Part shown: positions 10,085 to 63,603 of the stretch, one piece after another
How positions within the stretch are numbered: position 1 is the first letter of the stretch
Layout of the letters: every line of letters begins with the position of its first letter
DNA from: Deferribacter desulfuricans SSM1
GTDB taxonomy: Bacteria; Chrysiogenota; Deferribacteres; Deferribacterales; Deferribacteraceae
Assembly (NCBI RefSeq): GCF_000010985.1
Contig: NC_013939.1
Coordinates: forward strand, 835,501 to 899,500
Length of the DNA stretch: 64,000 nt
Reading direction: 5' to 3'
The notes under the pieces: model-generated
Told to the model about the DNA's origin: nothing
The model's database searches: none
What the model saw: only the letters and a program-made list of their open reading frames with translations
Position numbers and translations under genes: made by a program

Positions 10085-10160
10085 AAGATTGCTTCGGCAA
10101 CTTACATTGCTTTGCAATGACCCCAAAATCAGTGATTGCTAGCGTTAACGGAGCAATCTT
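10085..10160. repeat. Dispersed palindromic repeat, copy 1
   Basis: AAGATTGCT ... AGCAATCTT arms enclose CATTGC/GCAATG-type inner complementarity. The same design recurs at 12860-12931. Both copies have GAGGCTGTT-type sequence nearby, which suggests a miniature mobile repeat. The arms resemble the AGATTGCTTCG/CAATGAC repeats common in many bacterial genomes. Confidence 0.6.
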
Positions 10161-38222: not shown

Positions 38223-38294
38223 GCATAACGACCAAGCTCACCTGCCGCCATGAAGCGCCAGCGGATTGGAGGTTAGCTGGAGCGATTTGTTATG
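38223..38294 (-). repeat. attC site 1 (after the helicase cassette)
   Basis: About 72 bases. The minus strand starts with CATAAC, contains CTGGCGC/GCGCCAGC-type and CCGC/GCGG complementarity, and ends GGTCGTTATG. The outer CATAACG/CGTTATG boxes pair. The site overlaps the helicase stop codon, as is common for compact cassettes. Confidence 0.8.
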
Positions 38295-40812
38295 TTTCTT
38301 TGTAATAATTTTCTATATATTTTGTCCAAAGATTGTCTATATCTAAATTATGGCTAGTCAAAAATTCTTGCAACTTTTCGTCGCTTATTTCAGAAATATT
38401 GTAATTCTTAAATTCCTTAAAAAAGTTTTTTATATTTTTCTTTAACTCTCTAAGTTTACCTTTTCTCATTATAAAAACTTCATGCGTAAAGTTAGCATCT
38501 CTTGAAAGATTTTTTGTGGGTATAACTAAAATTCTCCTTACTGAAACAGTGCCATATTCGCTTTCAAACCATCCACAATGATTATTCATTTGTCCTGCTT
38601 CATTCTTGGTTATGGTCTTCCTAGAATCATCTACCTCACTCTTACACTCAAAAATAAAATATTTATTATCAACACCACACCATAGATTGTCTGGGCCTTT
38701 TTTGAACTCTTTATCAGGACGTTGACTTAGAAAACCTAAAGCTTCACCTACTGATTTTAATGCAGATTCAAATTTTTCTGATGGCATTCCAAAAGATAAA
38801 TCCTCTAACATACCGTCTATCTCCACCATCATGTCGGAATAGGAATTAAATTTTTTGATCCAATCTTTAATACGTTTTAATCTATTTTCATTAATAAATT
38901 CCAATTTTTTATAAACGATTCCTTCTTTTGGTATCATTAATTGAAGATTTTTTTGATATGCACTCTTTTGTATTTTATTGGATTCAACTTTACTAATTTT
39001 ATATTTATATCTTGCCATTAATTGCAAATACCAACCTTTTTCCTCCTCATTATCTAATTTATCAACTATTTGTTGTATTAATTCTATAGATTTTTCTAGA
39101 TCACCTTTAATTAGAGAATCTTGAGCTTTTTTTTCCAGATCCAATATATGATTAATTTCAGGTTTGCTTTCATTCGTAGATATTTCATTCATTCGCTCTT
39201 GATAAAACTGCTTCCAGCCTTCGTCTCTCCTTAATACTTGATTTATCAAAGATCTTACCACCTCAAAAGGAGATTCATCTTCATCAAGGTCATTTTTAGC
39301 TAGTTCTGCCACCTCTAATGCAATTTCTATTTGTTTCTGAGTCTGGTACGAAAAATATCTTTTTGTTAGCGGGCTCATAAGAAATTTTGTCAAGTCCCCA
39401 CCGATTATAACTATTATACTATAATCTTTTTCTCCTCTAACACTTCTTCCGATACCTTGTTCTATTTTTTGTGCAATTTTGATATTAATTATATCGCTAG
39501 TTGGTCTACAGCTTTCTTCATACCTGTCAGATAGAGAATCAAAAAATGGTTTTGAATCTAAAACCAAAATTCTGCAAGATTCATCTGGTAAATCTATCCC
39601 ATCATATCTATTTACAATAACAATAGTGTTCTCAAATTTACCTGATTTTAATTTCTGTAAAATTTCATAAATGTTATTAGAGGTAGTTATCGTTGCTCCT
39701 AAATTTTGATAATGAGCAGCCTTTTTAAAATTTGGCACGATCGTAACTATCCCGAACTTTTTTTTCGGATTTGGCTTGGCAAATTTAGTTACAATAAGAT
39801 TTCTATCCAATTCCTCATTTATTAGAGAAGGAACTAGAATAAGCTTTTCACCTGACCATTTTAATTTCTCATAAGTTAGTGGCTGCGTTATTGTTTCTGG
39901 GGCAAAACCAAGCCCTTTTATAAAGAAAGAATCATCTTGAGTCGTAGCTGACATCAGAATTCTTTGGTCAGCGTTTGTAAAAAAAGTAAATTTGTAAATA
40001 GGACTATATATGGGTGATATTTCAATATATTTACCAGAAATATAGGCTTGACAATTTTCGATATTATCTTTGATTAACGGCCAAATAAATTTAATTTCAT
40101 ATTCATTTTTATATTGAATAAGCTTGTTGATTACTTCCGATTTTTTATCAATCCATGCCCAATATGGAATCGGTAGTAATGTATTAAAATCTCCTGCTTT
40201 AATCTCTAAATAGCTACCCTCTCCTTGGGTTATTAGATCATCCTCAAAAAGCTCAAGAAAATCAGAATATAATCTATGATCTCTACATATTTTAATTGTA
40301 AATGTATCCTTAAGTGAATCAATACAAGCATGGGAATCATCTAATACAATATGCTTTATTGGAATTGCCCTAGCATCTAAGCCAAATATTGTTAATCCGT
40401 TGAAAACTTTTTGTACGTGTGTGATTAGAATTTTTTTACCGGATAAAAAATCTTCTGGAAGTTGATTATCCGTTCCTATTTGGCAATATGGAACACCAAA
40501 CTTATCTGCCTCTAAACAAGTTTGTTCAACGAGGTATATATTTGGGCAAATATATAAACATGGACCTTCATTATTGTTTAATCTTGAATGTAGAATAAGA
40601 AGGCCAATTAATGTTTTTCCTTCTCCTGTATGGAGTTTTATTATAAGATCCTTTTTGTCTCTATATTTACTAAACCATTCATTTAAAATATATTCTTGAG
40701 AAGGCCGAAGTGGACCTGTTTCACTTTTCCTATCAAGTGAATCATAAATTTCGATCGGATTTATTTTTCTAATAACTTTTTTTTCTTTAAGCTTTCTGCT
40801 GAAATCAACCAT
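38290..40812 (-). CDS. Superfamily 2 helicase fused to a PD-(D/E)xK nuclease (integron cassette)
   Basis: 840 residues. Walker A LHTGEGKT near 60-67, a DDSH box (VLDDSHACID near 155), SATTQDDSF (motif III) and QGIGRSVRG (motif VI near 455) define a DEAD/DEAH-type helicase. The C-terminal 150 residues contain PDNLWCGVDNKYFIFECKSE near 705-722, a PD...E-x-K nuclease core. Helicase-nuclease fusions are frequent in phage defence, which is the inferred role; no specific named system is recognised. Flanked by attC2 and attC1. Confidence 0.8.
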   Translation of the reverse strand: MVDFSRKLKEKKVIRKINPIEIYDSLDRKSETGPLRPSQEYILNEWFSKYRDKKDLIIKLHTGEGKTLIGLLILHSRLNNNEGPCLYICPNIYLVEQTCLEADKFGVPYCQIGTDNQLPEDFLSGKKILITHVQKVFNGLTIFGLDARAIPIKHIVLDDSHACIDSLKDTFTIKICRDHRLYSDFLELFEDDLITQGEGSYLEIKAGDFNTLLPIPYWAWIDKKSEVINKLIQYKNEYEIKFIWPLIKDNIENCQAYISGKYIEISPIYSPIYKFTFFTNADQRILMSATTQDDSFFIKGLGFAPETITQPLTYEKLKWSGEKLILVPSLINEELDRNLIVTKFAKPNPKKKFGIVTIVPNFKKAAHYQNLGATITTSNNIYEILQKLKSGKFENTIVIVNRYDGIDLPDESCRILVLDSKPFFDSLSDRYEESCRPTSDIINIKIAQKIEQGIGRSVRGEKDYSIIVIIGGDLTKFLMSPLTKRYFSYQTQKQIEIALEVAELAKNDLDEDESPFEVVRSLINQVLRRDEGWKQFYQERMNEISTNESKPEINHILDLEKKAQDSLIKGDLEKSIELIQQIVDKLDNEEEKGWYLQLMARYKYKISKVESNKIQKSAYQKNLQLMIPKEGIVYKKLEFINENRLKRIKDWIKKFNSYSDMMVEIDGMLEDLSFGMPSEKFESALKSVGEALGFLSQRPDKEFKKGPDNLWCGVDNKYFIFECKSEVDDSRKTITKNEAGQMNNHCGWFESEYGTVSVRRILVIPTKNLSRDANFTHEVFIMRKGKLRELKKNIKNFFKEFKNYNISEISDEKLQEFLTSHNLDIDNLWTKYIENYYKET

Positions 40813-45098: not shown

Positions 45099-46319
45099 TT
45101 ACTTTTTCTTTTTTATATAGGCTTCATTTATTTTATTTATGATTTCTTTTTCATCATTTTCTATCGTAATATCTGCTCCTGCATATAATAAATAATGAAC
45201 TATATTAAGATCTGAATTGAAAAACCAAGCTGTATGAATTGGAGCCTTATTGTCCCATGATGTCAAATTAATATCTGCACCATTTTCAACTAAAAATTTT
45301 ACGATTTCTAAGTTTCCATTGCTTGCTGCATAATGTAAGGGAGTCATAAGATTTTCATCTCTGGCATTGATGTAGATTCCTTTTTTTAAAAAGAAATCAA
45401 TAACTTTTATGTCGTTTGTATCAATTGCAAGATGTAAAGGAGTGTGTGTTATAGAAGTATTATAAATATAGTTGATTGTCTTATAATCATAATCTTTTAA
45501 AAAACATTCAAGGAAGGTTAGTAAATCGTATTTTTTCACATCAGAAACTGAAATCTCTTTGCTATATTTTAAATATAAATTAAGTAAGTCGTATGATTTT
45601 TCTAACCAAGCATATATTACTGAACTTAAGCCAAAAACATCTCTATCATCAACATCTAACCCAAGAGAAATTAAATACTCAGCAATTTTTAAGCTTATTT
45701 TACTATTTCCTATAGTTGCAAGAGGGGTTTGACCGATATTATCCTTTGTGTTTGGCTTTGCACCATTATGAATCATGAATTCAATAATCTCCATGTAGTT
45801 TTTGTTATCAATTAGTTGATAATATTCAGAGGTATAAACATAGTTGGCAATAAAATTATGTATTAATGTTCTGCCACAAATGTCTTTACTATTTATATCT
45901 GCTCCATGTTGCAAAAAATAGTTGGCAATATCAAACCGTTGTTTTTCAATAGAGAGCAAAAGTGGTGTAATACCAAAATCATCTCTAATGTTAACATCTA
46001 TACCTTTATCAATTAACTTTTTTATTAACTTAAAGCTTTCATCTGGTTTATCATAGAATTCTTGACTTATAATTATCTCATGAAGTAAAGAATAACCTCT
46101 AAATCCTCTTAAATTAATATCAATACCGTCTTCCATTAAAAAATTTACAACATCATAATGTCCTAAAGCTATTGCATAAAATATTATATGAGTCCCACTC
46201 TCATCAAAAAGATTATTTATATCTTTTTCTTTTTTTATTAAATCTTTTAGTAGTTTAATTTTGTTTGCGTTATTTTCGAGAATTTTATAAAAGCTTAACT
46301 TCATCTTTTTATTCATCAT
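45099..46319 (-). CDS. Ankyrin-repeat protein (second of a tandem pair)
   Basis: 406 residues made of ankyrin repeats, e.g. YDVVNFLMEDGIDINLRG, TPLLLSIEKQRFDIANYFLQ, TPLHYAASNGNLEIVKFLVE, with a more divergent central part. No signal peptide or enzyme domain is seen. It overlaps the end of its paralogue by 11 bases, so both come from one mRNA. Ankyrin proteins mediate binding; in bacteria they can be immunity or effector proteins, but nothing here shows which. Confidence 0.88.
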   Translation of the reverse strand: MMNKKMKLSFYKILENNANKIKLLKDLIKKEKDINNLFDESGTHIIFYAIALGHYDVVNFLMEDGIDINLRGFRGYSLLHEIIISQEFYDKPDESFKLIKKLIDKGIDVNIRDDFGITPLLLSIEKQRFDIANYFLQHGADINSKDICGRTLIHNFIANYVYTSEYYQLIDNKNYMEIIEFMIHNGAKPNTKDNIGQTPLATIGNSKISLKIAEYLISLGLDVDDRDVFGLSSVIYAWLEKSYDLLNLYLKYSKEISVSDVKKYDLLTFLECFLKDYDYKTINYIYNTSITHTPLHLAIDTNDIKVIDFFLKKGIYINARDENLMTPLHYAASNGNLEIVKFLVENGADINLTSWDNKAPIHTAWFFNSDLNIVHYLLYAGADITIENDEKEIINKINEAYIKKKK

Positions 46320-47475
46320 TATGTTTTAATACCAAATGTACACGTTCTTCTGGGATAACTCCTAAATTGTTCTCTATTGTAAGATCAGCGCCAGCTTTTA
46401 CTAAAATTTTTGTTATTTTTTTATTTCGTTTTAAAAGAGCATAATGAATTGGAGTATCTTTTGTTTCATTTAAAGCGTTTACATCAGCTCCATTTTCAAT
46501 CAACAATTTTACAATTTCGAAATGTTCTCTAAATGCAGCTTCATGCAATGGGGTATTTTTCATTGCGTTTCTTACGTTTACATTTATTCCCTTATGAATA
46601 AAAAATTTTACAATATCAAAATTTCCTATATAAGTAGCGATATGTAAGGGTGTAGTGTAAATAGGTTTATTATAAATTTCTTTTAAATTGATGTAATCAT
46701 AACCTGTTAAAAAATTATTTAAGAACTTCATAAGATTGTTGTTTGTAACATCTTTATAAGAAATTTCTTTACTATATTTGGTATAAAGTTTAATTAAATC
46801 AAACGCTTTAGCAAACCAAGCATATATTATCGGAGTTAATCCGAAAATATCTCTTTCATCTACATCTAATCTAATAGAAATTAAATACTCTGCAACTTCT
46901 AAAAACTCATTATTATCATTTTTGTCGTCATCCAAATCATCCATACCTATTAAAAACAAAGGAGTTTGATTGAGGTTATCTTTAGTATCAATTTTAGCTC
47001 CATTTTTAATAAGAAATTTAACACCTTCTAAGTTTCCACAATAGGCCATATCATATAAGGCTGTTTGTCCAAAAATATTTTTATGATTTACATTTGCTCC
47101 ATGCTTCAATAGATAGGTTGCTATGTCAAAACGTTTTCGTCCACAAGCCCAAATTAGAGGTGCATCACCATAATTATCACCAATATCAGCAGGTACACCT
47201 TTTTCAAGAAGTTTTTTTACTAATTCGAAGTTTTCAGCTACAACTGCTGAATGTAGTAATGAAAAGCCGTCAAAATTTCTAATATTTAAATCAATACCAT
47301 TATCTATAAGAAAGTTTACAATATCGTAATACCTAAATTGAAGCGCATGAAACATTATATGACTATCATGATCGTATAATTTATTTATATCCCCTGCTTG
47401 TATGATCAGATTTTTTAATTTTTCTATAATTTCAGACTCATCTTTTTTTAAAAAATCCATAAAAAAACTTTTCAT
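46309..47475 (-). CDS. Ankyrin-repeat protein (first of a tandem pair)
   Basis: 388 residues, paralogue of the following gene with the same layout: HALQFRYYDIVNFLIDNGIDLN, FDGFSLLHSAVVAENFELVKK, APLIWACGRKRFDIATYLLK, TPLHEAAFREHFEIVKLLIE. Line-by-line similarity, including the divergent middle (EYLISIRLDVDERDIFGLTP against EYLISLGLDVDDRDVFGLSS), indicates a tandem duplication. GAGGG precedes the ATG. Confidence 0.88.
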   Translation of the reverse strand: MKSFFMDFLKKDESEIIEKLKNLIIQAGDINKLYDHDSHIMFHALQFRYYDIVNFLIDNGIDLNIRNFDGFSLLHSAVVAENFELVKKLLEKGVPADIGDNYGDAPLIWACGRKRFDIATYLLKHGANVNHKNIFGQTALYDMAYCGNLEGVKFLIKNGAKIDTKDNLNQTPLFLIGMDDLDDDKNDNNEFLEVAEYLISIRLDVDERDIFGLTPIIYAWFAKAFDLIKLYTKYSKEISYKDVTNNNLMKFLNNFLTGYDYINLKEIYNKPIYTTPLHIATYIGNFDIVKFFIHKGINVNVRNAMKNTPLHEAAFREHFEIVKLLIENGADVNALNETKDTPIHYALLKRNKKITKILVKAGADLTIENNLGVIPEERVHLVLKHNDE

Positions 47476-47698
47476 TTTCGTTCCCTCACTAGATATTAGG
47501 TATTTATAATAGAATAGAGCGCCAGAAAATGACGTTTAAGCCAGACAGTTATGATCTTTAGTTTAAAAAAGCTTTGTTAATAGAAAATAAAGTTTTACTA
47601 ATAAATTTTTTCAATTTTTTATCAAATTAATAAAGTAACAACAAAAATTTTGGATGTTTGAAAATTTAATATCATCAATTTCTGTCTAAACTATGTTT

Positions 47699-48538
47699 TT
47701 ATAAGCTATTTATAAAGGACATAATTTTCTTTACTTCTTCTTGAGGTATCTTGTTAATATCAAATATAAATTCTTGTCCTCTATCAGGGATATTAACAAT
47801 CACATCACATCCATCTATTTTACAATTTTTTTCATTAATATATGTGAAGTGTTTAGGATAATTAAAATAATTAGGCAGACGCCATTTACTCCTATTTTTG
47901 TAATTTTTTAAGTCGGTCAATATAATTTGATCTGAAAAACTTAAAAGTTTAAAATTTTTTGAAATAAATAATATGTTTTTTCTATACTTTTTGGATGAAA
48001 TATGTGGATGTGAAACAAGATAAGGATATTTATCTTTTATTAATTCAGTTTGCTTTGAATCATTTAAATCATAAATTTCATCAACTATCATGTAACTCCA
48101 AATTAGATGAATATCCAAAGATTTTCTTTTATAACACCACTTATTATTTCTTAATTCAATATGTTTGAACCATCCAAAAAAAAGAAAAATATCTCCCTTT
48201 GTTACATCATGATTAATTAAATGAGATGCAGCGCTATTTGTCTGTCCAAATGCCATTATTTGTTTATCAGGTAAATACATAGGATCAAAATGACATTTAA
48301 ACTTCTTCTCTTTGTAATTACAATTATACCATTTTCCTGATTTAATTTTATTTTTTGTGACGTCATTCAAAATATCTTGAATTGAAAAAGTATTATACTT
48401 AAAAGTTAAGTCACTATAAGAAATATTTGATTCTTTATCAGGTATTGGTATTGAAAATAAAGTTCCATCAGGAAAAATTAAACTTGGGAAACCACCGTAA
48501 GAACTATCAAATCCTTTTCTACTAAAAATGATTTTCAT
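47699..48538 (-). CDS. Nmad3-type nucleotide modification-associated protein
   Basis: 279 residues. The start KIIFSRKGFDSSYGGFPSLI and the middle GDIFLFFGWFKHIE with LIWSYMIVDEIYDL match the Nmad3 family, defined by comparative genomics as associated with base-modification systems. Biochemical function is unproven. It starts two bases after Nmad2 ends and is the last gene of the UDG-WYL-Nmad2-Nmad3 operon. Confidence 0.8.
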   Translation of the reverse strand: MKIIFSRKGFDSSYGGFPSLIFPDGTLFSIPIPDKESNISYSDLTFKYNTFSIQDILNDVTKNKIKSGKWYNCNYKEKKFKCHFDPMYLPDKQIMAFGQTNSAASHLINHDVTKGDIFLFFGWFKHIELRNNKWCYKRKSLDIHLIWSYMIVDEIYDLNDSKQTELIKDKYPYLVSHPHISSKKYRKNILFISKNFKLLSFSDQIILTDLKNYKNRSKWRLPNYFNYPKHFTYINEKNCKIDGCDVIVNIPDRGQEFIFDINKIPQEEVKKIMSFINSL

Positions 48539-48540: not shown

Positions 48541-49314
48541 TTAACCATTACATGGAGATTTTTCTTCTGCAGAATCATTGCAATTGTCATCAATATGGCA
48601 ATTTATAGGATTACCTTGAAGACCATCTCCATATTTTTCAATTAATTTATTAATAAAATTGACAAAATCTTTTGTATATTTATCAGGACAATACTTGTAT
48701 CTATTAGGAAGACATTCTGCAAACTTTAATGGAAATTCTATTCCTTTATCCCCAAAGTATACAAATTCTTCAGAAATAAAAACTTTATTACCTTTTAAAT
48801 CTTTTAAGATAACATCATATTTCTTTTGCATATCAGTATCTTTTAAATACTTGTCTAATAAAGTCACATCAAAAAAAACTTCTTCATCAGGCAATTCCCT
48901 TATAGTTTTGGGTTCATGCCCATGACATCTTAACCATTTCCATTTTCCATTTTCAATGTAATAAACATTATCTCCCCTTCTTTTTCTCCAATCCCTACTA
49001 TTTTTTTCAAATTTTTTATCCTTAAATCTATGGTCGTTAAAATATTCGTTCAATGTTAAAATCTCAGTTACTTTTGCAAAATAAATCAGTGATTGTTTTA
49101 CTTCTGGCTTAAAATTCTTACTTATTCTTTTTTGTGCTAACATTTTACTTTCAACACCTACTAAGTATAAACCTTCATTTTCCATATACTTTTCATAAGT
49201 TCCCTTTTTGACTCCAAGATGATTTGGCATACAAGCAGCTAAAGTCAAATAACCCCAAAAAGGATTAGGAGCAAAGCCACTATCGTGTGTTAATTTGTAA
49301 ATTAATATTTTCAT
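48541..49314 (-). CDS. Nmad2-type nucleotide modification-associated protein
   Basis: 257 residues beginning KILIYKLTHDSGFAPNPFWG, followed by YLTLAACMPNH and GLYLVGVESKML, the hallmark of Nmad2 (HDxGFAPNPFxG). The domain is predicted to act on modified nucleotides or DNA; no enzymatic activity is established. The C-terminus carries several cysteines (CHIDDNCNDSAEEKSPC). A GGGGAGG Shine-Dalgarno is present. It lies between the WYL regulator and Nmad3. Confidence 0.82.
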   Translation of the reverse strand: MKILIYKLTHDSGFAPNPFWGYLTLAACMPNHLGVKKGTYEKYMENEGLYLVGVESKMLAQKRISKNFKPEVKQSLIYFAKVTEILTLNEYFNDHRFKDKKFEKNSRDWRKRRGDNVYYIENGKWKWLRCHGHEPKTIRELPDEEVFFDVTLLDKYLKDTDMQKKYDVILKDLKGNKVFISEEFVYFGDKGIEFPLKFAECLPNRYKYCPDKYTKDFVNFINKLIEKYGDGLQGNPINCHIDDNCNDSAEEKSPCNG

Positions 49315-49348: not shown

Positions 49349-50281
49349 TTATAAATGTGTTGAATACTTTTTAATAATATTTTCAACAAATTTCTTGATA
49401 ACTTTTATGTATTCATAAGGTTCTTTAATTTGAACATATTCAGCCCAGGGACGAACAAAATACAACAACTCTTCGTCATTTGATACATAAAAAGTTATTA
49501 ATAATTTTTCATTATCTAATTCTTCTTCAATTTTTTGCTGAGGAAATATTTCTTTTCTTTTAAAATAAAAGGCAACTTCTGAATCTATTTCAGCGATTAC
49601 TTTAACTTTCTCTTTTTCCTCAAACCAAATACTACTGGCATTGTTTATCAGTTCATCAATTTCCTGTTGAGAGATTTCAAAGAATTTCATAAGGATTCTT
49701 ACATCTTTGATAAGGTCAATTGAAAATTTTTTTAATGTGTTTTCATGTTTTGCCAATAAGTACCAGAATCCATTATCTATTAGTACGCACAAAGGTTTAA
49801 CTGTATATTTTTTCCCATACTTTTCATAATAAAATTCTATCTCTTGACGGTGTTTAATTGCATCATCTATTTCAGAAAGAGTATCCATAATTTTATCAAT
49901 ATCAATGTATGTGGATGTGGGATTATTGATAAATTTTACGACTTCAACCGAATTTATATGTAAAATCTTTTTTAAAATTTTATCAATATGTGCCTTGGTT
50001 TTTGGTGTGACAAACTTTTTTACATATTCAAGTAATGCTGCCAGAAATTGAATTTCTGTTTTTGGCAGATTTACATCTGTAAATTTTACATTTTCAAGCA
50101 ATGAATAAGTGTGATCGTCTGGATCATAATATAAAAGCCCGGGGATATTTAATAACTCTGCCATATATCTTTGAGCAGTTCTTACGCTGACTCCTAATTC
50201 GTCTGCAACAAGCTTGGTTGTTACTTTCCTATGTTTTTTTAATAGTTCAAGTATTTCAATAGTTAGAGCTATTCCCTTCAT
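49349..50281 (-). CDS. WYL-domain transcriptional regulator
   Basis: 310 residues. The N-terminal winged helix-turn-helix (LTIEILELLKKHRKVTTKLV, ADELGVSVRTAQRYMAELLN) is of the HTH_11/DeoR-like type. The centre (HRQEIEFYYEKYGKKYTVKPL, NGFWYLLAKHE) and C-terminus form WYL and WCX domains that bind ligands, often nucleic acids. Such regulators commonly control defence islands (BrxR, CapW). It probably binds the CGACA-N5-TGTCG palindrome upstream of its own operon; this is inferred. Confidence 0.88.
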   Translation of the reverse strand: MKGIALTIEILELLKKHRKVTTKLVADELGVSVRTAQRYMAELLNIPGLLYYDPDDHTYSLLENVKFTDVNLPKTEIQFLAALLEYVKKFVTPKTKAHIDKILKKILHINSVEVVKFINNPTSTYIDIDKIMDTLSEIDDAIKHRQEIEFYYEKYGKKYTVKPLCVLIDNGFWYLLAKHENTLKKFSIDLIKDVRILMKFFEISQQEIDELINNASSIWFEEKEKVKVIAEIDSEVAFYFKRKEIFPQQKIEEELDNEKLLITFYVSNDEELLYFVRPWAEYVQIKEPYEYIKVIKKFVENIIKKYSTHL

Positions 50282-50290: not shown

Positions 50291-50983
50291 TTACAATTCT
50301 TTTTCCAAATATTTTATAACTCTTCCATCAAAATATGATGGGTGGATAATACCCAATAATTTCTTGCCATTAAATTCAGTTTTTGCAAATAAGCGTCTAC
50401 ACGATTTATCCGAATATGCGTAAACAGAAGTAATTTTTACCTTTGTTACACCATATCGTTTATTTAAAATTTCTGAGATGAATAAATCAAATGTTTCAAG
50501 ACCTTCTAATAAAATTATTTTGGGATTTATATAATCTACTATTTCTTTTACTTTACCAAAGCAGAATTGTTCCAGTGATATCCGTAATTCTTTATCTAAA
50601 CTTAGCCATTCTTTTTTACTCTTTGACCTGAAAAAAATAAGATTTAACTTTACACTTTTTTCTAACAACTCCAATTTTCCTATTTCCTCAAATAAATTAT
50701 ACATTACAACAGCAGTTTTATACTTTTCATTTTTATTGTTTTTACCACTATATTTTATATATTCGTGTTCTTTTTCGAGATTGAAAACATCTTCAATATT
50801 AAAATCTTTATCTCCTCCACCAGGGTTATAACCTATTATCATTAATTCTGGATTCTTCCTTACTTTGGAATAGAAAACTGCAAAACCGTTTTTTTCTACG
50901 ATATTATTTTTATCCTTACTACTTGCTATTTCCCAAACATTTTTTACTTCTTCTAATAAGTTTAATGCCCATTTTCTACACAT
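50291..50983 (-). CDS. Uracil-DNA-glycosylase-superfamily protein
   Basis: 230 residues. The motif LMIIGYNPGGGDKDF near 47-61 corresponds to the UDG active-site loop, and the C-terminal LLGIIHPSYFDGRV to the HPS DNA-binding loop. The classic catalytic Asp/Asn context is altered (NPGGGD), so it may excise another altered base, or only bind. First gene of the operon with WYL, Nmad2 and Nmad3; GGGGG precedes the ATG. Confidence 0.72.
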   Translation of the reverse strand: MCRKWALNLLEEVKNVWEIASSKDKNNIVEKNGFAVFYSKVRKNPELMIIGYNPGGGDKDFNIEDVFNLEKEHEYIKYSGKNNKNEKYKTAVVMYNLFEEIGKLELLEKSVKLNLIFFRSKSKKEWLSLDKELRISLEQFCFGKVKEIVDYINPKIILLEGLETFDLFISEILNKRYGVTKVKITSVYAYSDKSCRRLFAKTEFNGKKLLGIIHPSYFDGRVIKYLEKEL

Positions 50984-51002: not shown

Positions 51003-51031
51003 ATTTTACAATATGGATTTATTCATGTAAA
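51003..51031 (-). promoter_or_regulatory. Predicted promoter of the UDG-WYL-Nmad2-Nmad3 operon
   Basis: Minus strand TTTACA (51031-51026), 17-base spacer, TAAAAT (51008-51003). The shared palindrome ends one base upstream of this -35 element. Confidence 0.6.
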
Positions 51032-51032: not shown

Positions 51033-51047
51033 CGACAGTAATTGTCG
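51033..51047. promoter_or_regulatory. Palindromic operator, copy 1
   Basis: CGACA-GTAAT-TGTCG, lying between the divergent WYL operon and the AAA+ ATPase gene. The same 15-mer with one central change is at 56874-56888, again one base from a -35-like hexamer on the minus strand. Likely a binding site for the WYL regulator or a LexA-like repressor. Confidence 0.65.
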
Positions 51048-51093
51048 TTTACCGAAAGTAATATCTTTTTAATAGTTATTTTGGAGGTTTATT

Positions 51094-52611
51094 ATGGAAA
51101 GTTTAATAATGAGAATTCACGAAATTTATAATGATGAAAAAATATTAAATAATTTAAATGTAAAAAATGAAATAACCGATAAGTTAGAAAAGCTTTTTGA
51201 TATATCAACTCCTGAGGCCAATCTTTTAGGATTTTTTATTGCTAAAAGTATAGATAACTCTGAGGGTGTTGCTATTAAGCAATATTGTAATAACCTTACA
51301 ACTAAAAAATATTTAGAGATAATAGCTTTTATTATCAGTCTTGAAAATCAAAAAATAGTAACAACAAAACCTAATGAGCTTCACATATTTGACAATCAAA
51401 AGACAGTTTTAGACCCTAATGTAAAAGTTGAAGCGTATGTGTTAAAAAAGCTTTTAAAAGAGGATAAATTAGAAGAAAAAATTAAAATAGATGAACTAAA
51501 AGATGAAATTGAAATTTTAAATGTTTTGATTAAGCCAATAGCTGAGTTGGAACAATCTGAAGTTTCATTTACTATGTTAGCAAAGGAACTTCAAGGATTG
51601 ATTAACAGATTACCTAAAACATCTTTAACTTATAGGATATTGTCAAGATATTCTTTTGAAGAACAATTTTTATTTTTATATTTAGTTTATTCTATCTTAC
51701 AACCCTATTATTCACCAACAGAAATATTTAACAACTACATTTCGATTACTGCGAAAGAGACTAAAAAATATTTAAAATTTTTGTACAAGATTATAAATAG
51801 GGAATTACCAATTATTAAAGATAATATAATAATAATTGATAATGAGTATACAGATCTTTCTTCTTTGGATATAAATCTAAAGATAAATGATTTTATACTG
51901 GCAAGGCTCTTTGCCCAAAAAAATCATTTGTTTTTATCAAATACCTTGGAATTTAAAGAATATCAATTAAAAGAGAAAATAGTTTTTAATGAAAAAATTG
52001 AAAGAAATATCAAAATTATAAAACAAACTATTGTCGATGGTATTACGAAGAAAGTATTAATTCATGGTGAAAGTGGCACAGGTAAAACTACAGTGGCATA
52101 TCATTTATCAACTCTTACAGGGAAAAAGTTAATATCAGTAAACTACAAGGATTTTTTGCCATATGCAAATAAAAATCATTCTTTTTTATTGAATAAAGTT
52201 TTTGATGTTTTTACTTCAGTAGAGTTAATTGAAAATGAGAAATTTATTTTATTTTTTGATGATATTGAACGGTTTCTATTTCCTGGTTCTAATTTTCTTT
52301 CTAACAAAATAACTTACGAATTTATTGAATATTTAAAAAATTTTTCTGGAATTTTAATTGTAACAACAAAAGAATTAGAAAAGTTACCGTTACATTTAAA
52401 AAATCAATTTGATGTTATTTTGAAAATGGAATTTCCAAATAAAACTACAATACAGAAAATTTTGCAGCACAATATACAGGATATTTCACTTGATGAAATC
52501 AAAAAATTATCAGAATATCCTTTAACTTATTATCAAGTAAATAATCTGGTATCTTACTACAAAAATTTTAAGTACTTTCCTTTAGAATTAATTATAGATG
52601 GGATTTTTTAA
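51094..52611 (+). CDS. AAA+ ATPase with long N-terminal helical region
   Basis: 505 residues. Residues 1-300 are mainly helical and not recognised. Residues 310-505 form an AAA module: Walker A GESGTGKTT near 325-333, Walker B FILFFDDIERF near 385-395, and IVTTKELEKLPLHLKNQFD with a likely sensor and arginine finger region. It is divergent from the WYL operon and shares its operator region, and is followed 24 bases later by a DnaE-type polymerase. It may load or remodel that polymerase or DNA; this is inference. Confidence 0.75.
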   Translation: MESLIMRIHEIYNDEKILNNLNVKNEITDKLEKLFDISTPEANLLGFFIAKSIDNSEGVAIKQYCNNLTTKKYLEIIAFIISLENQKIVTTKPNELHIFDNQKTVLDPNVKVEAYVLKKLLKEDKLEEKIKIDELKDEIEILNVLIKPIAELEQSEVSFTMLAKELQGLINRLPKTSLTYRILSRYSFEEQFLFLYLVYSILQPYYSPTEIFNNYISITAKETKKYLKFLYKIINRELPIIKDNIIIIDNEYTDLSSLDINLKINDFILARLFAQKNHLFLSNTLEFKEYQLKEKIVFNEKIERNIKIIKQTIVDGITKKVLIHGESGTGKTTVAYHLSTLTGKKLISVNYKDFLPYANKNHSFLLNKVFDVFTSVELIENEKFILFFDDIERFLFPGSNFLSNKITYEFIEYLKNFSGILIVTTKELEKLPLHLKNQFDVILKMEFPNKTTIQKILQHNIQDISLDEIKKLSEYPLTYYQVNNLVSYYKNFKYFPLELIIDGIF

Positions 52612-52635
52612 TTTTATTGGCAGATGGAGAAAATT

Positions 52636-55434
52636 ATGAAAAGGGATTTTATTCACCTTCATCTTCATACACAGTACTCGCTTCTTGATGGAGCAATCCA
52701 TATCTCAGAACTTATGAAAAAATTGAAAGAACATGGTTCAAAAGCCGTAGCAATTACAGATCATGGAACTATGTACGGCATAGTTGATTTCTACACCCAA
52801 GCTCTGGCCAACGATATAAAACCTATCATCGGTTGTGAAGTTTACGTTGCTCCGGATTCCAGATTCAACAAAAATTACAGTAAAAAAGAGGATAAAAGCT
52901 ACCATCTGGTACTGCTTGCCAAAAACAATGCAGGATTGAAGAATCTCCAGTATCTTGTCAGTCTCGGCCATATAGAAGGATTTTATTACAAACCAAGAAT
53001 AGATAAAGAACTCCTTGCCAAATATTCTAAAGGATTAATTGGTTTATCAGCCTGTCTTGCAAGTGAGCCTGCACAGAAAGCTTTAACTGATGGTTATGCT
53101 GCCGCTAAAGAATCAGCTTTAGAATATTATGAGATTTTTGGTAAAGATAATTACTACCTTGAAATACAGGATAATAATATTCCAGAGCAGTATATTGTAA
53201 ATACTATTTTCATGGAAATATCAAGAGAGACAGGGATTCCAATTGTTGCAACAAACAACTGTCACTTTTTAAACAAAGAAGATTATAGCTCACATCAGGT
53301 TCTGATGTGTATTCAATATCAGCAAACTTTAAACGACCCCAACAGAAGAGATTCTCACTCCTCAGAGCTTTTTGTTAAATCACCTGAGGAGATGTGGCAG
53401 GCTTTTGGAGAAATCGAAGAAGCATTAATCAACACTGTAAAAATAGCAGAGCGCTGCAATGTTTCAATGACCTTTGGAGAACTACATCTACCTGTTTATG
53501 ACGTCCCAGAAGGATATACACTAAAAACCTATTTAGAACACATTGCCAAAGAAGGGCTTCATAAAAGATTAGCAAAAGTACCATTAGAACTGCATTCAAA
53601 ATATTATCAAAGGTTAGAATACGAGCTTAAAATAATCCATGAAAAAGGGTATGATGGATATTATCTGATTGTCTGGGATTTTATCAACTTTGCCAGAAAA
53701 AATAAAATACCTGTTGGCCCAGGTAGAGGCTCTGGAGCTGGTTCTCTTGTAGCCTATGCAGTAGGTATCACAGATATTGACCCTATAAAATACAAACTCC
53801 TTTTTGAAAGATTCTTAAATCCTGAGCGTAAAAGTATGCCCGATTTTGACATCGATATTTGCATGAATAGAAGAGAAGAAGTGATAGATTATGTGAGAAA
53901 CAAATATGGTCATGACAGAGTAGCACAGATTATCACTTTCGGTAAACTACTTGCAAGAGGTGTAATAAGAGATGTGGGAAGAGTTTTAGAAATCCCACTT
54001 AAAACTGTTGATAAAATAGCAAAAATGATTCCAGCAAAACCAGATCTCACGCTAAAAAAGGCATTGGAAATGGATCCAGAACTAAAACCAAATATCGAAA
54101 GTATAGAAAAAGGGAAAGAGTTATTAGAGCATGCGTTAAAGTTAGAAGGTTTACTTAGAAATGCAGGGATGCATGCTGCAGGTGTAGTAATCTCTGATAA
54201 ACCATTAGTGGAGTATGTCCCTCTTTGTAAAGGTCAAAATGATGAAGTTGTCACCCAGTTTGAAAAAGATACTCTTGAGAAGGTAGGACTTGTTAAACTT
54301 GACTTTTTAGGATTGAAAAACCTTACAGTAATAGATTATGCCTCAAAACTCATCAGAAAATCAAAAGACCCAAATTTTGATATTTCAGCTATCCCTTTGG
54401 ATGATAAAAAGACCTTTGAACTGCTATCAAGCGGTGAAACCACTGGAGTTTTCCAGCTTGAAAGTAGTGGAATGAAAAATCTTCTAAAAAAATTAAAACC
54501 TACGACATTTGAAGATATTATTGTGCTGGTTGCATTATACAGACCTGGTCCTATTGGAAGTGGGATTCTCGATGACTTTTTAAAAAGAAAGCATGGTCTG
54601 CAAGAAGTTACTTACCCACTACCAGAGTTAGAAGAGATACTAAAAGAAACCTACGGTATCATCGTTTATCAAGAGCAGGTTATGCAAATTGCTCAAATTG
54701 TCGCTGGATATTCACTGGGTAGCGCGGATTTACTTAGAAGAGCAATGGGTAAGAAGAAACCTGAAGAGATGGCTAAACACAGGAAAATTTTCCTTTATGG
54801 TGATGAGAAGCTAGGGATAGAGGGAGCTGTAAAAAGAGGATTTGATGAAAAGATAGCTTCAGAAATTTTTGATTTAATGGCAAAATTTGCTGAATACGGT
54901 TTTAACAAAAGTCACTCGGCAGCTTACGCCATGGTGAGTTATCAAACAGCTTATTTAAAGGCACACTACCCTGTGGAATATATGGCATCTATTATAACTC
55001 AAGAGTTTGAATTTAAATATAATTATAGAATAGAAGAATTAATTGCTGAATGTAACAACATGGGGATAACCGTATTGTTACCAGACATCAATAAATCTGA
55101 GAAAGATACTGTTGTAGAAAGAAATCTAATTAAAGTTGGTCTCAAGGCAATACATGATAACGATGAAATAATTGATAAAATTATTTTTGAAAGAAATAGG
55201 AATGGTGAGTTTAAAAATCTTAAAGATTTTTGCAAACGGATTGATTTAACAATAGTAAATAAAAATGCAATAAGCTCATTTATCAAATATGGTGCTATGG
55301 ATTCCTTTGGTAAAAGTAGAAAACAATTATTACAGGTTTTGAATGATACAATAAAGTTATGTTTGCAAGAACAAAAGTGGAAAAAGACAGGAATAATTAC
55401 AATTGAAAACCTCTTAAAAACGTCTGATAAATAA
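52636..55434 (+). CDS. dnaE: DNA polymerase III alpha-subunit homologue lacking the C-terminal region
   Basis: 932 residues from the ATG at 52636, which has GGAG six bases upstream. PHP domain (HLHLHTQYSLLDGA) and palm with catalytic Asp in PDFDIDI near 403-405 and KLDFLGLKNL near 556. Fingers and helix-hairpin-helix follow, and the protein ends soon after GAMDSFGKSRKQLL. Bacterial DnaE is normally about 1100-1160 residues: the beta-clamp motif, OB fold and tau-binding domain are absent. The 5' 2.3 kb has higher GC than the last 400 bases. It is probably a specialised second polymerase rather than the replicative one. Confidence 0.88.
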   Translation: MKRDFIHLHLHTQYSLLDGAIHISELMKKLKEHGSKAVAITDHGTMYGIVDFYTQALANDIKPIIGCEVYVAPDSRFNKNYSKKEDKSYHLVLLAKNNAGLKNLQYLVSLGHIEGFYYKPRIDKELLAKYSKGLIGLSACLASEPAQKALTDGYAAAKESALEYYEIFGKDNYYLEIQDNNIPEQYIVNTIFMEISRETGIPIVATNNCHFLNKEDYSSHQVLMCIQYQQTLNDPNRRDSHSSELFVKSPEEMWQAFGEIEEALINTVKIAERCNVSMTFGELHLPVYDVPEGYTLKTYLEHIAKEGLHKRLAKVPLELHSKYYQRLEYELKIIHEKGYDGYYLIVWDFINFARKNKIPVGPGRGSGAGSLVAYAVGITDIDPIKYKLLFERFLNPERKSMPDFDIDICMNRREEVIDYVRNKYGHDRVAQIITFGKLLARGVIRDVGRVLEIPLKTVDKIAKMIPAKPDLTLKKALEMDPELKPNIESIEKGKELLEHALKLEGLLRNAGMHAAGVVISDKPLVEYVPLCKGQNDEVVTQFEKDTLEKVGLVKLDFLGLKNLTVIDYASKLIRKSKDPNFDISAIPLDDKKTFELLSSGETTGVFQLESSGMKNLLKKLKPTTFEDIIVLVALYRPGPIGSGILDDFLKRKHGLQEVTYPLPELEEILKETYGIIVYQEQVMQIAQIVAGYSLGSADLLRRAMGKKKPEEMAKHRKIFLYGDEKLGIEGAVKRGFDEKIASEIFDLMAKFAEYGFNKSHSAAYAMVSYQTAYLKAHYPVEYMASIITQEFEFKYNYRIEELIAECNNMGITVLLPDINKSEKDTVVERNLIKVGLKAIHDNDEIIDKIIFERNRNGEFKNLKDFCKRIDLTIVNKNAISSFIKYGAMDSFGKSRKQLLQVLNDTIKLCLQEQKWKKTGIITIENLLKTSDK

Positions 55435-55499
55435 ATATTGACAGGTACTATTCAGATATTCATTGATTAACTTCTGAGTTTCTAATCTAAAAGATCACA

Positions 55500-55521
55500 A
55501 AGGTGGACAAAAGTCCACCTT
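55500..55521. terminator. Bidirectional terminator between dnaE-like and lipoprotein genes
   Basis: AAGGTGGAC, AAAA, GTCCACCTT: a perfect 9-bp stem between two convergent genes; its right arm touches the lipoprotein stop codon. Confidence 0.6.
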
Positions 55522-56323
55522 AATTTAACCAGAAAAATTTATCTTTATTTTCAAGGATAGATTTACCATAATCAGTTAACATAACTGAAAAACTGTTTCC
55601 TTTTTTACATAGCAAGTCGATCATATTAATTTTTTCAATATTGCCATCCTCTTTTTTTAAAACAAAAGCTTTATTCAAAGGTGAACTTACGTCGATTATA
55701 TCATAAGGACTATTAGCTATTTCATATCTAAAGCTGAAAATATAATCACTATTACTACAAATTTCTGAAATTGATTTATTTTTAATTGTTTTTCGATATT
55801 TTATGTTAATCCTGTCTTTTAAAAATTTTAAAAAATCACTAACCTTTGCTTGTTTTTTAAACTGCGTATAAAAATCTTCAACAAAACTAATTATATCTTC
55901 ATCTACTCCGTAATATTTATTAAAAAGGAGGATTTTATTTACAGTTTCTTTTTTTAGAAGTCCACTGGAGATTACTTCTTTACTATTATTTTCTAATAAA
56001 GAATTTATTCTTGAATAGATATTGTTATATAATGCTATATAATATTGATTCCTTGACATTCCACCTTCTACAGCCATTTTCAGAATAGTGGCATCAAAAT
56101 CATACCCAAGATCTTCGCAGGTTTCCTTATACCCTTTTTTCATGTTAGCAATTAGTTCTTTTACAGTACTAGCAGGTTCAAGGTTTTTTGATACTTTTTC
56201 AATTTTACTTATCCATTTTTCAAGATTTTCTTGAGAAAATGGCATCGCTTTACCATTCCCTTTACTTCCTGATGAACATGCAAGAACAACAAAAATGAGT
56301 AGATAGAAAATTATTTTCTTCAT
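55520..56323 (-). CDS. Hypothetical lipoprotein
   Basis: 267 residues with a type II signal peptide (KKIIFYLLIFVVLAC, lipobox VLAC, then SSGSKGNGK). The mature part is helical (ISKIEKVSKNLEPASTVKEL) and ends DYGKSILENKDKFFWLN; not recognised. The ATG at 56323 has GGAGG five bases upstream and is preferred over ATG 56338. Second gene of a two-gene operon behind palindrome copy 2, which links it to the WYL/Nmad/DnaE cluster. Confidence 0.7.
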   Translation of the reverse strand: MKKIIFYLLIFVVLACSSGSKGNGKAMPFSQENLEKWISKIEKVSKNLEPASTVKELIANMKKGYKETCEDLGYDFDATILKMAVEGGMSRNQYYIALYNNIYSRINSLLENNSKEVISSGLLKKETVNKILLFNKYYGVDEDIISFVEDFYTQFKKQAKVSDFLKFLKDRINIKYRKTIKNKSISEICSNSDYIFSFRYEIANSPYDIIDVSSPLNKAFVLKKEDGNIEKINMIDLLCKKGNSFSVMLTDYGKSILENKDKFFWLN

Positions 56324-56341
56324 TTTTACCTCCTTCATAGT

Positions 56342-56842
56342 TTATTCTAAAACGATGAAACGTAATTCTTCTTGCTGAAATTCACTTAAAATCTGCTTTA
56401 AGCTTTTTAGTTTTATATTGTTAATTTTTAGAAATCTTCGAATTAGTTCATATTCTCTTTCTGAATAGAAATATTGAAAAATATTCATATAAAATGCTGG
56501 GATATATTCTTTTTCAAAATAAAATTCCAATTCTGTTAATTGGCCTTTAGAGTTTGTGTGAAAAATAAACAGACCTATATTTGCATTTACAATTAAATTT
56601 TCATTTGATGGGAAAACATCGGTTGTATCATTTTCTTGAAAGAGATATATTGTTCCGTCAAATAGCCCACTTTTAAGATTTTTATTCAAATAAACTTTGG
56701 ATATATCTTTAATAAAATAAGTGTTAATTATTTGCCCAATTTTTGATGCTGTTAATTTAAGGTTCGTGTAATTAAATAAGAAGTTGAGAAAGTTACAAAA
56801 TTCTTTGAATTTCATTAAAGGTACCATACCTAACAACCTCAT
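56342..56842 (-). CDS. Hypothetical protein behind operator copy 2
   Basis: Up to 166 residues; starts at ATG 56842, 56827 or 56815 are possible. The predicted -35 at 56872-56867 would place the transcript start close to 56840, which favours 56827. The protein (FCNFLNFLFNYTNLKLTASK, GLFIFHTNSKGQLTELEFYF) has no recognised domain. First gene of the operon with the lipoprotein. Confidence 0.6.
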   Translation of the reverse strand: MRLLGMVPLMKFKEFCNFLNFLFNYTNLKLTASKIGQIINTYFIKDISKVYLNKNLKSGLFDGTIYLFQENDTTDVFPSNENLIVNANIGLFIFHTNSKGQLTELEFYFEKEYIPAFYMNIFQYFYSEREYELIRRFLKINNIKLKSLKQILSEFQQEELRFIVLE

Positions 56843-56873
56843 GTGATCTTTTCAATAGATTAAAACATGCAAC

Positions 56874-56888
56874 CGACAATAATTGTCG
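56874..56888. promoter_or_regulatory. Palindromic operator, copy 2
   Basis: CGACA-ATAAT-TGTCG, identical to copy 1 except for one central base, and again one base upstream of a minus-strand -35-like hexamer (TTGCAT). TATAAT on the plus strand (56890-56895) overlaps its right edge. Confidence 0.65.
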
Positions 56889-57158: not shown

Positions 57159-57959
57159 ATGCAAAGAATAGATAATAAGAACTTTAACCTAAATAATTTT
57201 CTATTAACTTTACTATCCAAAGGTAGATACTGTTTTACCTTAAATGAAATTAGAAATATAAGTAAATTATCTGATAAAGCTATTCATCAGGCACTTTACA
57301 GAGCAAAAAAAAGTAATAAAATTGCTCAAATCAGACAAGAGTTTTATGTAATAATCCCCCCAGAGTTCTATGATAGAAAAATGATACCACCTTATCTATT
57401 CATAGACGATATGATGAAATTTCTGAATAAAACATATTATGTATCCATGTTTTCTGCTGCATCAATGCTTGGAGCAGGACACCAGCAACCAATGCTTTTT
57501 CAGCTGATAATCGAACCACCAGCTTTAAGAAATATAAAAAAAGAACATTTAGAGATCCATTTTTTTATAAAAAAGCAAATTGATATTAATTACATTGTTA
57601 AGAAAAAAACTAAAGCCGGTTATATAAACGTTTCATCTGTAGAGCTAACCATTTTAGACCTTATTTTATACCATCATAGAATAGGAGGAATCGGTAGGAA
57701 CTTACCTATTCTTGAAGAATTATTGGAAGATGCAGATGTTGAGAAGATTCATGAAATAGCAATTAGACATAATCTCAAGACCAGTTTTCAAAGGCTGGGT
57801 TTCATTTCTGATGTTTTACTGGGATATAAAGAAGTCTCCGATTTCATTTATAAGCACTTAAATAAAACCAAGAAAATACCTCTGTCGCTATTACATCCGG
57901 CAAAAGGCAAATTGGATAAAAAATGGAAAATTATTGTTAATACCGAGGTAGAGTTATGA
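57159..57959 (+). CDS. AbiEi-type antitoxin/transcriptional repressor
   Basis: 266 residues. The N-terminal winged helix (YCFTLNEIRNISKLSDKAIHQALYRAKKSNKIAQIR) and C-terminal AbiEi domain (YYVSMFSAASMLGAGHQQP, VSSVELTILDLILYHHRIGG) match COG5340-type antitoxins of type IV toxin-antitoxin systems. It would repress its own promoter and counter the nucleotidyltransferase toxin AbiEii. The stop overlaps the abiEii start as ATGA. The toxin is broken, so the antitoxin is now an orphan. Confidence 0.85.
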   Translation: MQRIDNKNFNLNNFLLTLLSKGRYCFTLNEIRNISKLSDKAIHQALYRAKKSNKIAQIRQEFYVIIPPEFYDRKMIPPYLFIDDMMKFLNKTYYVSMFSAASMLGAGHQQPMLFQLIIEPPALRNIKKEHLEIHFFIKKQIDINYIVKKKTKAGYINVSSVELTILDLILYHHRIGGIGRNLPILEELLEDADVEKIHEIAIRHNLKTSFQRLGFISDVLLGYKEVSDFIYKHLNKTKKIPLSLLHPAKGKLDKKWKIIVNTEVEL

Positions 57960-58490
57960 TACCAACGAGATATATACTTGAATGGAAAGAATTTGCTCCA
58001 TGGGTTGATAACTCACTAATCGAGCAAGATTTAATTATACATCGTACCATTATAGAATTATTTTCCAATAAATTTCTAAAATCAAAATTGGCTTTTAGGG
58101 GTGGTACTGCTTTCAGTTTTAGGATATAAGGAAAGGAAATTAAAATTGTCTAATGGATGGTGTAACAAATCAGCTATAGTAAATACTTTTTGCCTGGAAG
58201 AGTTACTTGCAACAAAGTTGAGGGCATTATATCAAAGAAAAAAGGGAAGAGATTTATTTGACTTGTATTATGTTTTGAAGAATAGAGAGGTTGATGTAGA
58301 AAAGGTAATATTCTGCTTTAAAAAATATATGGAACATGACGGTAACAATATTACAAAGAAAGATTTCATGAAAAATTTGGATGAGAAATTAAACGATGCT
58401 GATTTCATTGGTGACATTTACGCATTACTTGTGCCGAATATTCAATATAACAATTTAGAAGCATATCTTTATATGTTAATGCTAATATAA
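57956..58490 (+). pseudogene. AbiEii-type nucleotidyltransferase toxin, internally deleted
   Basis: The N-terminal part (57956-58129, IPTRYILEWKEFAPWVDNSL to LAFRGGTAF) ends in a premature TAA. The C-terminal part in another frame (58101-58490) has FCLEELLATKLRALYQRKKGRDLFDLYYVL. The region between GGTA and the C-terminal half, which should hold the Asp-x-Asp catalytic residues, is missing, so toxin activity is lost. Overlap with abiEi fits the normal operon order. Confidence 0.85.
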
Positions 58491-62058: not shown

Positions 62059-63603
62059 TTAAGTTTCAACGTTTTCCCATTCAAATGAAACAATATTGCG
62101 ATTTTTTTTGCTAAATTCTATGCCTATCAAGTAAATATCTGAATATCTGTTCTCATACTTTTCAAAATATCTCTTTTCTTTTATCTGTTTTAATGCTTTA
62201 TTTTCCGCATCCTCATCAACCACTTTAAACTCAATTATGTAAACTTTCCCATTATGTATTATCGTTACGTCTATTTTTCCCCTGTTGGTGACATCTTCTG
62301 CTATCGTATATAATCCAGCACCATTAAATAACGCATAAACTACAGATGCATAAAAACCCTCATACTCTTCCAAATCATTCTTCCTATACCAATCATGAGA
62401 TATCGATGAAAAAAAACTAACTAAACTCTTTTTCAATTTCTCTATATCTCCAACACGCAAAGCTTCCTCTAAAACTGTCTCCGTATCTTCTTTTATGTCC
62501 AACGTAGATAAAACATCTATTAAAAAGAAATTATTTAAACTCATCTTCACTTCTAAATTGGGATACGACAATACATACTTCGTCTTAAAACCTGAACTAA
62601 CTGTACCCTTTATGGTTAAATACCCTGTCTGAAAAAGTATGTTCTCAGGTCTTATAAATCCCACATCCAAATTGGATAATATTTCATCACTTGCCCTTAA
62701 AGATTCTAATTTCGGTAGATAAAATTTATTATCCAATAACAGTTTTATCAAAAAGGTAGGTGTACCTGTCTCAAACCAGTAAGGTCTAAAACTCTTTTTA
62801 TCAAACAAAAGTAAAATATCAAATGGATTGTAAACCTTCTCTCCAAGCCAGCTATAACCATTGTACCACTCTTTAACTTCTTTTCTGTCAAAATCTTTTA
62901 TCCTATCTGCAAAAACACTCTCCAAATCTGATTGTGTATAGCCACAAATTGTGGCAAATCTTTCATCCAATGTGATATCATTCAATTGATTCAATCCACT
63001 AAATATCGATACCTTGGAAAACCTCGATACACCGGTCAAAAATACAATCTTTAAATAAGGGTCTGCATCCTTTAATACAGATTCAAAATCTTTCAATATC
63101 TCCCGGTTCTCCTTCGCAACCTCTATATCATCTATCCTATCCAGTATTGGCTTGTCATACTCATCAACAAGTACAACAACCTTTTCATCATATTTTGCTG
63201 CAAGATTTTCTATCAACTCTTTAAACTTCAGACTTATAATATCCTCTGTCAACGATATATCATAGTCCCTCGAAATCTTATCAAGATATGAATTTATGAT
63301 TTTGATTAATTTATCGGCATTGTTTATAACTCCACTGCCGAAACTGATTTTTATTACCGGGTACTTTCTATCCCAATCCCAATTGTCATAAAGGTAAAGA
63401 CCTTTGAATAATTCTCTATTTCCGCTAAAAGCCTCTTTCAATGTATCAAGAAAAAGGGATTTACCAAATCTGCGTGGACGACTGAGGAAGAAATATTTAC
63501 CTACTCCGACCAATCTTTCAACAAAATGCGTTTTATCCACGTAATAATAATTTTCCGTTCTGATTTCTTTAAAACTCTGTATACCTATCGGCAACTTCTT
63601 CAT
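62059..63603 (-). CDS. AAA-ATPase-like/PD-(D/E)xK protein
   Basis: 514 residues. The N-terminus LPIGIQSFKEIRTENYYYVDKT and SRPRRFGKSLFLDTL near 42-56 (P-loop variant) with VVLVDEYDKPILD (Walker B) identify the AAA-ATPase_like family. The C-terminus GKVYIIEFKVVDEDAENKAL near 455-475 is its PD-(D/E)xK partner domain. These proteins occur in many copies in anaerobes and thermophiles; the role is unproven, possibly DNA-directed. It is separated from its neighbours by AT-rich gaps. Confidence 0.9.
   Translation of the reverse strand: MKKLPIGIQSFKEIRTENYYYVDKTHFVERLVGVGKYFFLSRPRRFGKSLFLDTLKEAFSGNRELFKGLYLYDNWDWDRKYPVIKISFGSGVINNADKLIKIINSYLDKISRDYDISLTEDIISLKFKELIENLAAKYDEKVVVLVDEYDKPILDRIDDIEVAKENREILKDFESVLKDADPYLKIVFLTGVSRFSKVSIFSGLNQLNDITLDERFATICGYTQSDLESVFADRIKDFDRKEVKEWYNGYSWLGEKVYNPFDILLLFDKKSFRPYWFETGTPTFLIKLLLDNKFYLPKLESLRASDEILSNLDVGFIRPENILFQTGYLTIKGTVSSGFKTKYVLSYPNLEVKMSLNNFFLIDVLSTLDIKEDTETVLEEALRVGDIEKLKKSLVSFFSSISHDWYRKNDLEEYEGFYASVVYALFNGAGLYTIAEDVTNRGKIDVTIIHNGKVYIIEFKVVDEDAENKALKQIKEKRYFEKYENRYSDIYLIGIEFSKKNRNIVSFEWENVET

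Follow-up and report, generated by a model that had tools for sequence, protein, structure and literature searches.

What controls a small cassette of Deferribacter desulfuricans SSM1 in which nearly identical palindromes stand at promoters, and does its regulator switch the genes on or hold them off? One gene of the cassette encodes a WYL-domain protein; WYL damage activators have reportedly been worked out before (DriD in Caulobacter, PafBC in mycobacteria), as have WYL repressors in defence islands (BrxR and CapW). The window, meaning the whole 64,000-nucleotide stretch that was analysed (G000:C1:835501-899500), had earlier been read from its letters alone, and this sequence-only reading reported two palindromes, at 51033-51047 and 56874-56888, that differ at one base and occur nowhere else in the window. 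Their coordinates and sequences were confirmed exactly, and the claim of uniqueness stands for exact copies; a matrix built from operator sites within the phylum adds a degenerate third copy at 47520-47534. In window coordinates, the three operators are:

51033-51047: operator 1, CGACAGTAATTGTCG, lying between the divergently transcribed UDG-WYL-Nmad and AAA-DnaE operons; exact, matrix score 22.2, the best in the window
56874-56888: operator 2, CGACAATAATTGTCG, ahead of the operon for the 166-aa protein and the lipoprotein; exact, matrix score 17.6
47520-47534, minus strand: operator 3 (degenerate), CGTCATTTTCTGGCG, ahead of the two ankyrin genes; its matrix score of 14.4 is the third-best in the window

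Operator 3 lies 45 bp upstream of the ankyrin-repeat gene, and 7.5% of shuffles hold any match as good. A scan of the whole 2.54-Mb genome found exact copies of CGACA-N5-TGTCG at operators 1 and 2 only, both inside the WYL cluster, and not the many unrelated occurrences that would speak against a local regulon. The relaxed form CGWCA-N5-TGWCG gives one further match in the genome, 79 bp before mazG (G000:C1:1803456). This match was rejected as an operator; it seems to lie in an interspersed repeat shared with locus L003 and also violates the flanking-pyrimidine rule.

Around the three operators, ten genes in four transcription units can be proposed as the local regulon of this genome:

45099-46319, minus strand: second ankyrin-repeat-like protein, overlapping the end of the first ankyrin gene; likeness judged from sequence
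46309-47475, minus strand: ankyrin-repeat protein behind operator 3 (PF12796, E 1.6e-85)
47699-48538, minus strand: Nmad3 (PF18754, E 1.4e-55)
48541-49314, minus strand: Nmad2 (PF18753, E 1.2e-34)
49349-50281, minus strand: WYL regulator, the proposed binder (Pfam HTH_11, WYL and WCX, with a helical linker)
50291-50983, minus strand: UDG-like protein, encoded first in the WYL operon and named on a motif basis only
51094-52611, plus strand: AAA ATPase (PF00004, E 8.7e-11), whose homologue in G010 (40%) lies beside operators
52624-55434, plus strand: truncated DnaE paralogue of 936 aa, 85% identical to the housekeeping DnaE
55520-56338, minus strand: putative lipoprotein, second gene of the 166-aa operon (weak LPAM_1 match)
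56342-56842, minus strand: 166-aa conserved protein with homologues in G010 and G014 (32-33%)

The true start of the 166-aa protein is probably the ATG at 56827, since its homologues in G010 and G014 align from residue 7. The UDG-like protein has no match in Pfam, NCBIfam or PHROG, a weak PDB match (E 0.66) and an AlphaFold model too poor for use (pLDDT 46.8); its label comes from motif-like GYNPGG and HPS, both conserved in the G010 homologue (49%), and no relatives were found in plasmids, phages or viral contigs. Over residues 1-785 the DnaE copy shares about 92% identity with the housekeeping DnaE (G000:C1:2027661), against only about 47% in its C-terminus, and the last ~225 residues (the clamp region) are missing. 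With dN at 0.054 and dS at about 2 against the housekeeping enzyme, the copy appears to be kept by purifying selection. From its content, the cassette may serve in defence or DNA repair. In one figure of the DefensePredictor report, NMAD and UDG domains are among the predicted defence systems, which are listed as not validated (PMC13092281); as far as that report was consulted, those systems differ in having no DnaE copy or WYL operator, and the UDG label here is motif-based. The cassette proper contains no recognised defence system, and candidate defence genes are found in the surrounding island. This island-like stretch (29334-63603) has a tRNA-Arg gene, an integrase, a Mutator transposase, the PADLOC candidate PDC-S28 (38290-40812) and a PDDEXK_9 AAA-ATPase (62059-63603). 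At 57159-58490, an AbiEi-like antitoxin gene precedes a partner ORF that is shortened and possibly broken.

The WYL protein itself has the domain order of DriD: an HTH, a helical linker (3HB), WYL and WCX, with predicted helices at 74-88, 93-110 and 128-143 between the HTH and WYL domains. A fold model (pTM 0.40) ranks DriD first (E 3e-14, at only about 19% identity) and PafBC second, followed by CapW and BrxR. The sequence profile also matches DriD and PafBC, with DriD first, and gives no CapW or BrxR match at E 1. Searching the genome with the window protein finds one WYL gene and not a PafBC-type pair of subunits; among viruses there is a single distant relative.

The link between this protein and the operator was examined across the Deferribacterota. 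WYL relatives were gathered from 51 genomes of the phylum, and up to 20 kb was taken around twenty matches. Exact CGWCA-N5-TGWCG occurs in the 200 bp before the WYL gene or operon at 10 of the 14 Deferribacterota loci, and a one-mismatch operator at three more, against an expectation for those 14 loci of 0.1 from their own site density and 0.02 from shuffles. WYL relatives outside the phylum (Epsilonproteobacteria, Elusimicrobia and others) have no matching site nearby, and their recognition helices are mostly of the RTIQRD type; among the WYL orthologues, RxAQRY at the recognition helix is invariant. Because the operator lies upstream of WYL orthologues that share RxAQRY and is absent near relatives with a different helix, it can be tied to the WYL protein, which this association strongly supports as the likely binder of the palindrome. 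The earlier idea of a single local regulon is thereby borne out, the operator accompanying WYL orthologues at their own promoters.

Several of these loci show how the parts of the cassette are rearranged. The congener G010 encodes homologues of the AAA (40%), 166-aa (33%), UDG-like (49%) and WYL (38%) proteins in a different gene order. Of its three operator copies there, two lie in a divergent promoter region and one at the 3' end of the WYL gene, this last with a perfect TATAAT 11 bp on. Following the WYL/UDG/AAA set in that genome (L021, G010:C8, 5548-15454) are genes for a UvrD-type helicase, a nuclease-like protein, a DUF2357-PD-(D/E)XK protein and a McrB-like AAA protein. At L062 (G011, 7474-10130), a WYL gene that is 74% identical to the one in the window is divergent from a broken-looking Nmad3 homologue (two ORFs), which suggests a recent exchange of the cassette between families. 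At L075, L077, L078 and L079 (g15), WYL and comEC are transcribed divergently and operator-like palindromes lie between them, an arrangement that hints at a damage regulator linked to DNA uptake. In G025, a gene for a TIR-domain protein sits immediately behind WYL on the same strand (L067, 8424-9269).

Where the operator sits within promoters says more about what its binder may do. The consensus over 64 sites is RCGWCA-N5-TGWCGY, and in the window a -10-like hexamer is found at the same distance past each operator:

51059-51064, plus strand: putative -10 TAATAT of the AAA-DnaE operon, 11 bp past operator 1
51016-51021, minus strand: putative -10 TAAATC (weak) of the UDG operon, 11 bp past operator 1
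51031-51026 and 51008-51003, minus strand: TTTACA and TAAAAT, an alternative promoter of the UDG operon directly after operator 1
56857-56862, minus strand: putative -10 TAATCT of the 166-aa operon, 11 bp past operator 2
47503-47508, minus strand: putative -10 TATAAA of the ankyrin operon, 11 bp past operator 3

The sequence-only reading had placed a minus-strand -35 hexamer one base after both palindromes. This holds at 51033 (TTTACA-17-TAAAAT) but not at 56874, where a promoter scan found no minus-strand promoter. A class-II activator site upstream of TTTACA/TAAAAT was the first idea, and is retained solely as the alternative for the UDG operon. Across 26 cassette-promoter units, the average -10 score has a sharp maximum at a gap of 11 (5.60), a height that 0 of 2000 shuffles attain. 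Because the pattern was first noticed on this set, the gap was tested on sites fetched later. Gap 11 was the second-best gap at the f5 and f6 sites (p 0.001); at the g15 sites, which come from AT-rich genomes, it reached p 0.04 and was not among the top gaps, and after duplicate promoters were thinned the best pair of gaps in g15 was 10-11. With a -10 at gap 11, the operator spans approximately -38 to -24, so that the position of the -35 hexamer falls in its middle. By computation, then, the -35 lies at the centre of the site and the spacing to the -10 is constant; the exception is the WYL promoter of the f5 genomes.

This is the geometry described for DriD. In Caulobacter crescentus, DriD runs an SOS-independent damage response with a regulon of DNA-damage genes; it is activated by single-stranded DNA, and its target sites have the -35 at their centre and keep a constant distance to the -10, at promoters with poor -35 elements, one of them divergent (PMC12340889). 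The system described here resembles it in domain order, best fold match, -35-centred sites, a divergent operon and a damage-gene regulon, and differs in its low identity (about 19%) and in an operator that marks recA in relatives as well as defence-like cassettes. PafBC of mycobacteria, according to the portion of the report available, is an ssDNA-activated WYL-domain activator of a damage regulon (PMC11804915). It is likewise a WYL activator of damage genes and the second-best fold match; however, it is a heterodimer whose site lies at about -24, and it depends on RNA polymerase for binding, whereas here a single protein would face a two-fold palindrome over the -35.

Taken with the computed results (the operator itself, where it occurs, how it is linked to WYL and where it lies relative to -10-like hexamers), these comparisons lead us to favour, with some reserve, a DriD-like WYL damage activator acting at an operator that replaces the -35, with a local regulon of four units in this genome and a wider one that includes recA elsewhere in the phylum. 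In such a mechanism, the N-terminal HTH of the WYL protein would read RCGWCA-N5-TGWCGY, and the WYL-WCX core would probably sense single-stranded DNA. The operator would take the place of the -35, and the bound regulator would probably recruit RNA polymerase in lieu of a good -35 element. The units controlled here would be the ankyrin pair, UDG-like/WYL/Nmad2/Nmad3, AAA/truncated DnaE and 166-aa/lipoprotein, and elsewhere in the Deferribacterota the same operator would mark a wider DNA-damage regulon including recA. Binding of the operator by the WYL protein is suggested by the association of their genes. As DriD is the best fold and profile match and has the same promoter geometry, activation by ssDNA is favoured; both the sensing of ssDNA and activation rather than repression are thus argued by analogy, and the signal may be DNA damage or phage DNA. 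Some observations weigh against the activator reading: the set in which the gap of 11 was first noticed is also the one where it is strongest, the f5 WYL promoters have their -10 closer to the operator, the fold match to DriD has low identity and comes from a model of pTM 0.40, recA of this genome has no site, and the UDG operon has an ordinary promoter just after its operator.

The chief rival keeps the WYL protein and reverses its action. As an autoregulated repressor of the BrxR/CapW kind, it would cover the promoter until a nucleic-acid signal on infection releases it, and a defence-like cassette would stay silent until needed. There is precedent: in the parts of the two reports at hand, BrxR is a WYL repressor of defence loci that binds inverted repeats at promoters (PMC9122601), and CapW is another, with inverted-repeat sites that overlap the -10 (PMC9122588). 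The likeness extends to WYL regulators in defence islands, inverted repeats at promoters and the fold match, and the cassette of the window sits in an island with candidate defence genes. The f5 genomes offer a site that would suit a repressor: the operator stands 17-18 bp before the WYL start codon, the upstream genes are co-directional, and an extended -10 follows only 5-6 bp past the operator, unlike the gap of 11 elsewhere. However, the activators DriD and PafBC outrank CapW and BrxR in both structure and profile matches, and steric repression would need no fixed distance to the -10. The BrxR and CapW sites, as far as these sources describe them, overlap the -10 or lie just past it, whereas most sites here are over the -35, and a recA regulon is not described in them for either protein. 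We regard repression as rather unlikely overall and most plausible at the WYL gene's own promoter.

A regulator other than WYL or LexA might read the site instead, with WYL merely a frequent neighbour or target. The evidence for WYL as the binder is all associative, which leaves room for such a protein; against it, WYL is the only regulator gene that repeatedly has the operator at its promoter, across neighbourhoods that are otherwise unrelated, and the presence of WYL accompanies intergenic sites. We consider this explanation improbable.

Returning to the favoured WYL activator, its reach can be followed in relatives. Exact sites of WYL-positive genomes were compared with those of genomes having no WYL match or a very distant one: 38 of the 45 sites tested in the former are intergenic, against 3 of 16 in the latter. 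Ten genomes have an exact operator before recA, namely G025-G028 of f5 (at about 85 bp) and G039 and G041-G045 of g15, with recA identified by reading the translated sequence. At these promoters the operator arms are conserved, and the five central bases and most flanks are variable. In G018 the operator precedes ssb; genes behind other exact sites encode an N6 methylase/HsdM, a ResIII/SNF2 helicase, AAA proteins, an ADP-ribosylglycohydrolase and an exonuclease. It also precedes a YfbR-type nucleotidase gene with a divergent Hpt-like gene, and at WYL loci it faces comEC, a PD-(D/E)XK (AddB-like) nuclease gene and other neighbours. A damage-gene regulon apart from LexA, as known for DriD, is therefore seen in relatives (recA in ten cases, ssb in one). 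In the genome of the window, recA is under neither an exact nor a relaxed site, and the regulon consists of the local cluster only. The sequence-only reading would have counted sites before recA in favour of LexA, which misleads in these relatives, where it is the WYL operator that precedes recA; absent from that reading were operator 3 with the ankyrin operon, the operator's location at the -35 place and the recA sites in other Deferribacterota.

A broader interpretation, to which we give a little less than an even chance, is that the Deferribacterota have a second DNA-damage response beside LexA, governed by WYL and including recA, and that mobile defence or DNA-processing cassettes have regulator copies of their own that read the same operator. 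If so, ssDNA from phage or from damage would turn on repair and cassette genes jointly. One operator code would then join, in another phylum, a damage response (recA, ssb) and defence-like cassettes (ankyrin, Nmad, AAA, DnaE fragment). The analysis defines the operator precisely, to 17 bp, predicts the promoter geometry and lists target genes, and so offers a handle on the signal to which the Nmad/UDG-like/DnaE-copy cassette answers.

The sequence-only reading had named either the WYL protein or a LexA-type repressor as the binder, and a local SOS regulon with the palindrome as its LexA box is conceivable in principle: a DnaE copy, a UDG-like gene and recA sites in relatives would suit SOS, and LexA is encoded in the genome, beside dinB. 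Although damage genes such as recA lie near the operator in relatives, the motif is absent from all 13 lexA loci examined in the phylum (0/13, even with one mismatch) and is tied to WYL instead. LexA-positive genomes that lack WYL mostly have no exact site, and in the others (G002, G012, G013 and G019) every exact site is within an open reading frame. G040, of the same genus as nine WYL-bearing genomes, keeps LexA but has neither WYL nor an exact site. A box at both lexA and recA of one genome was not found. LexA was accordingly rejected as the binder, on its 13 loci without the motif and on the lack of intergenic exact sites in LexA-positive, WYL-negative genomes; it is very improbable, and WYL stands as the likely one of the two. 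A literature search for a WYL damage regulon or a LexA regulon in Deferribacter found none. Least probable of all is a chance pair of palindromes in one window: ten bases are few, and the in-gene sites of WYL-negative genomes show that chance copies arise, but exact CGACA-N5-TGTCG is in 0 of 300 dinucleotide-shuffled windows, and the comparative data refute chance, since identical arms are found again at WYL promoters throughout the order.

LexA may have a box of its own in this genome. The candidate CAAACANNTGTTTG occurs exactly three times, once between lexA and dinB, which is too few to call. CAAACATTTGTTTG, which lies between lexA and dinB (L061, G000:C1:458455), may be the LexA box of the window's genome. 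Near lexA, near mazG and elsewhere (L061, L009, L003) lie copies of a separate interspersed repeat (..aagcaatctcat..).
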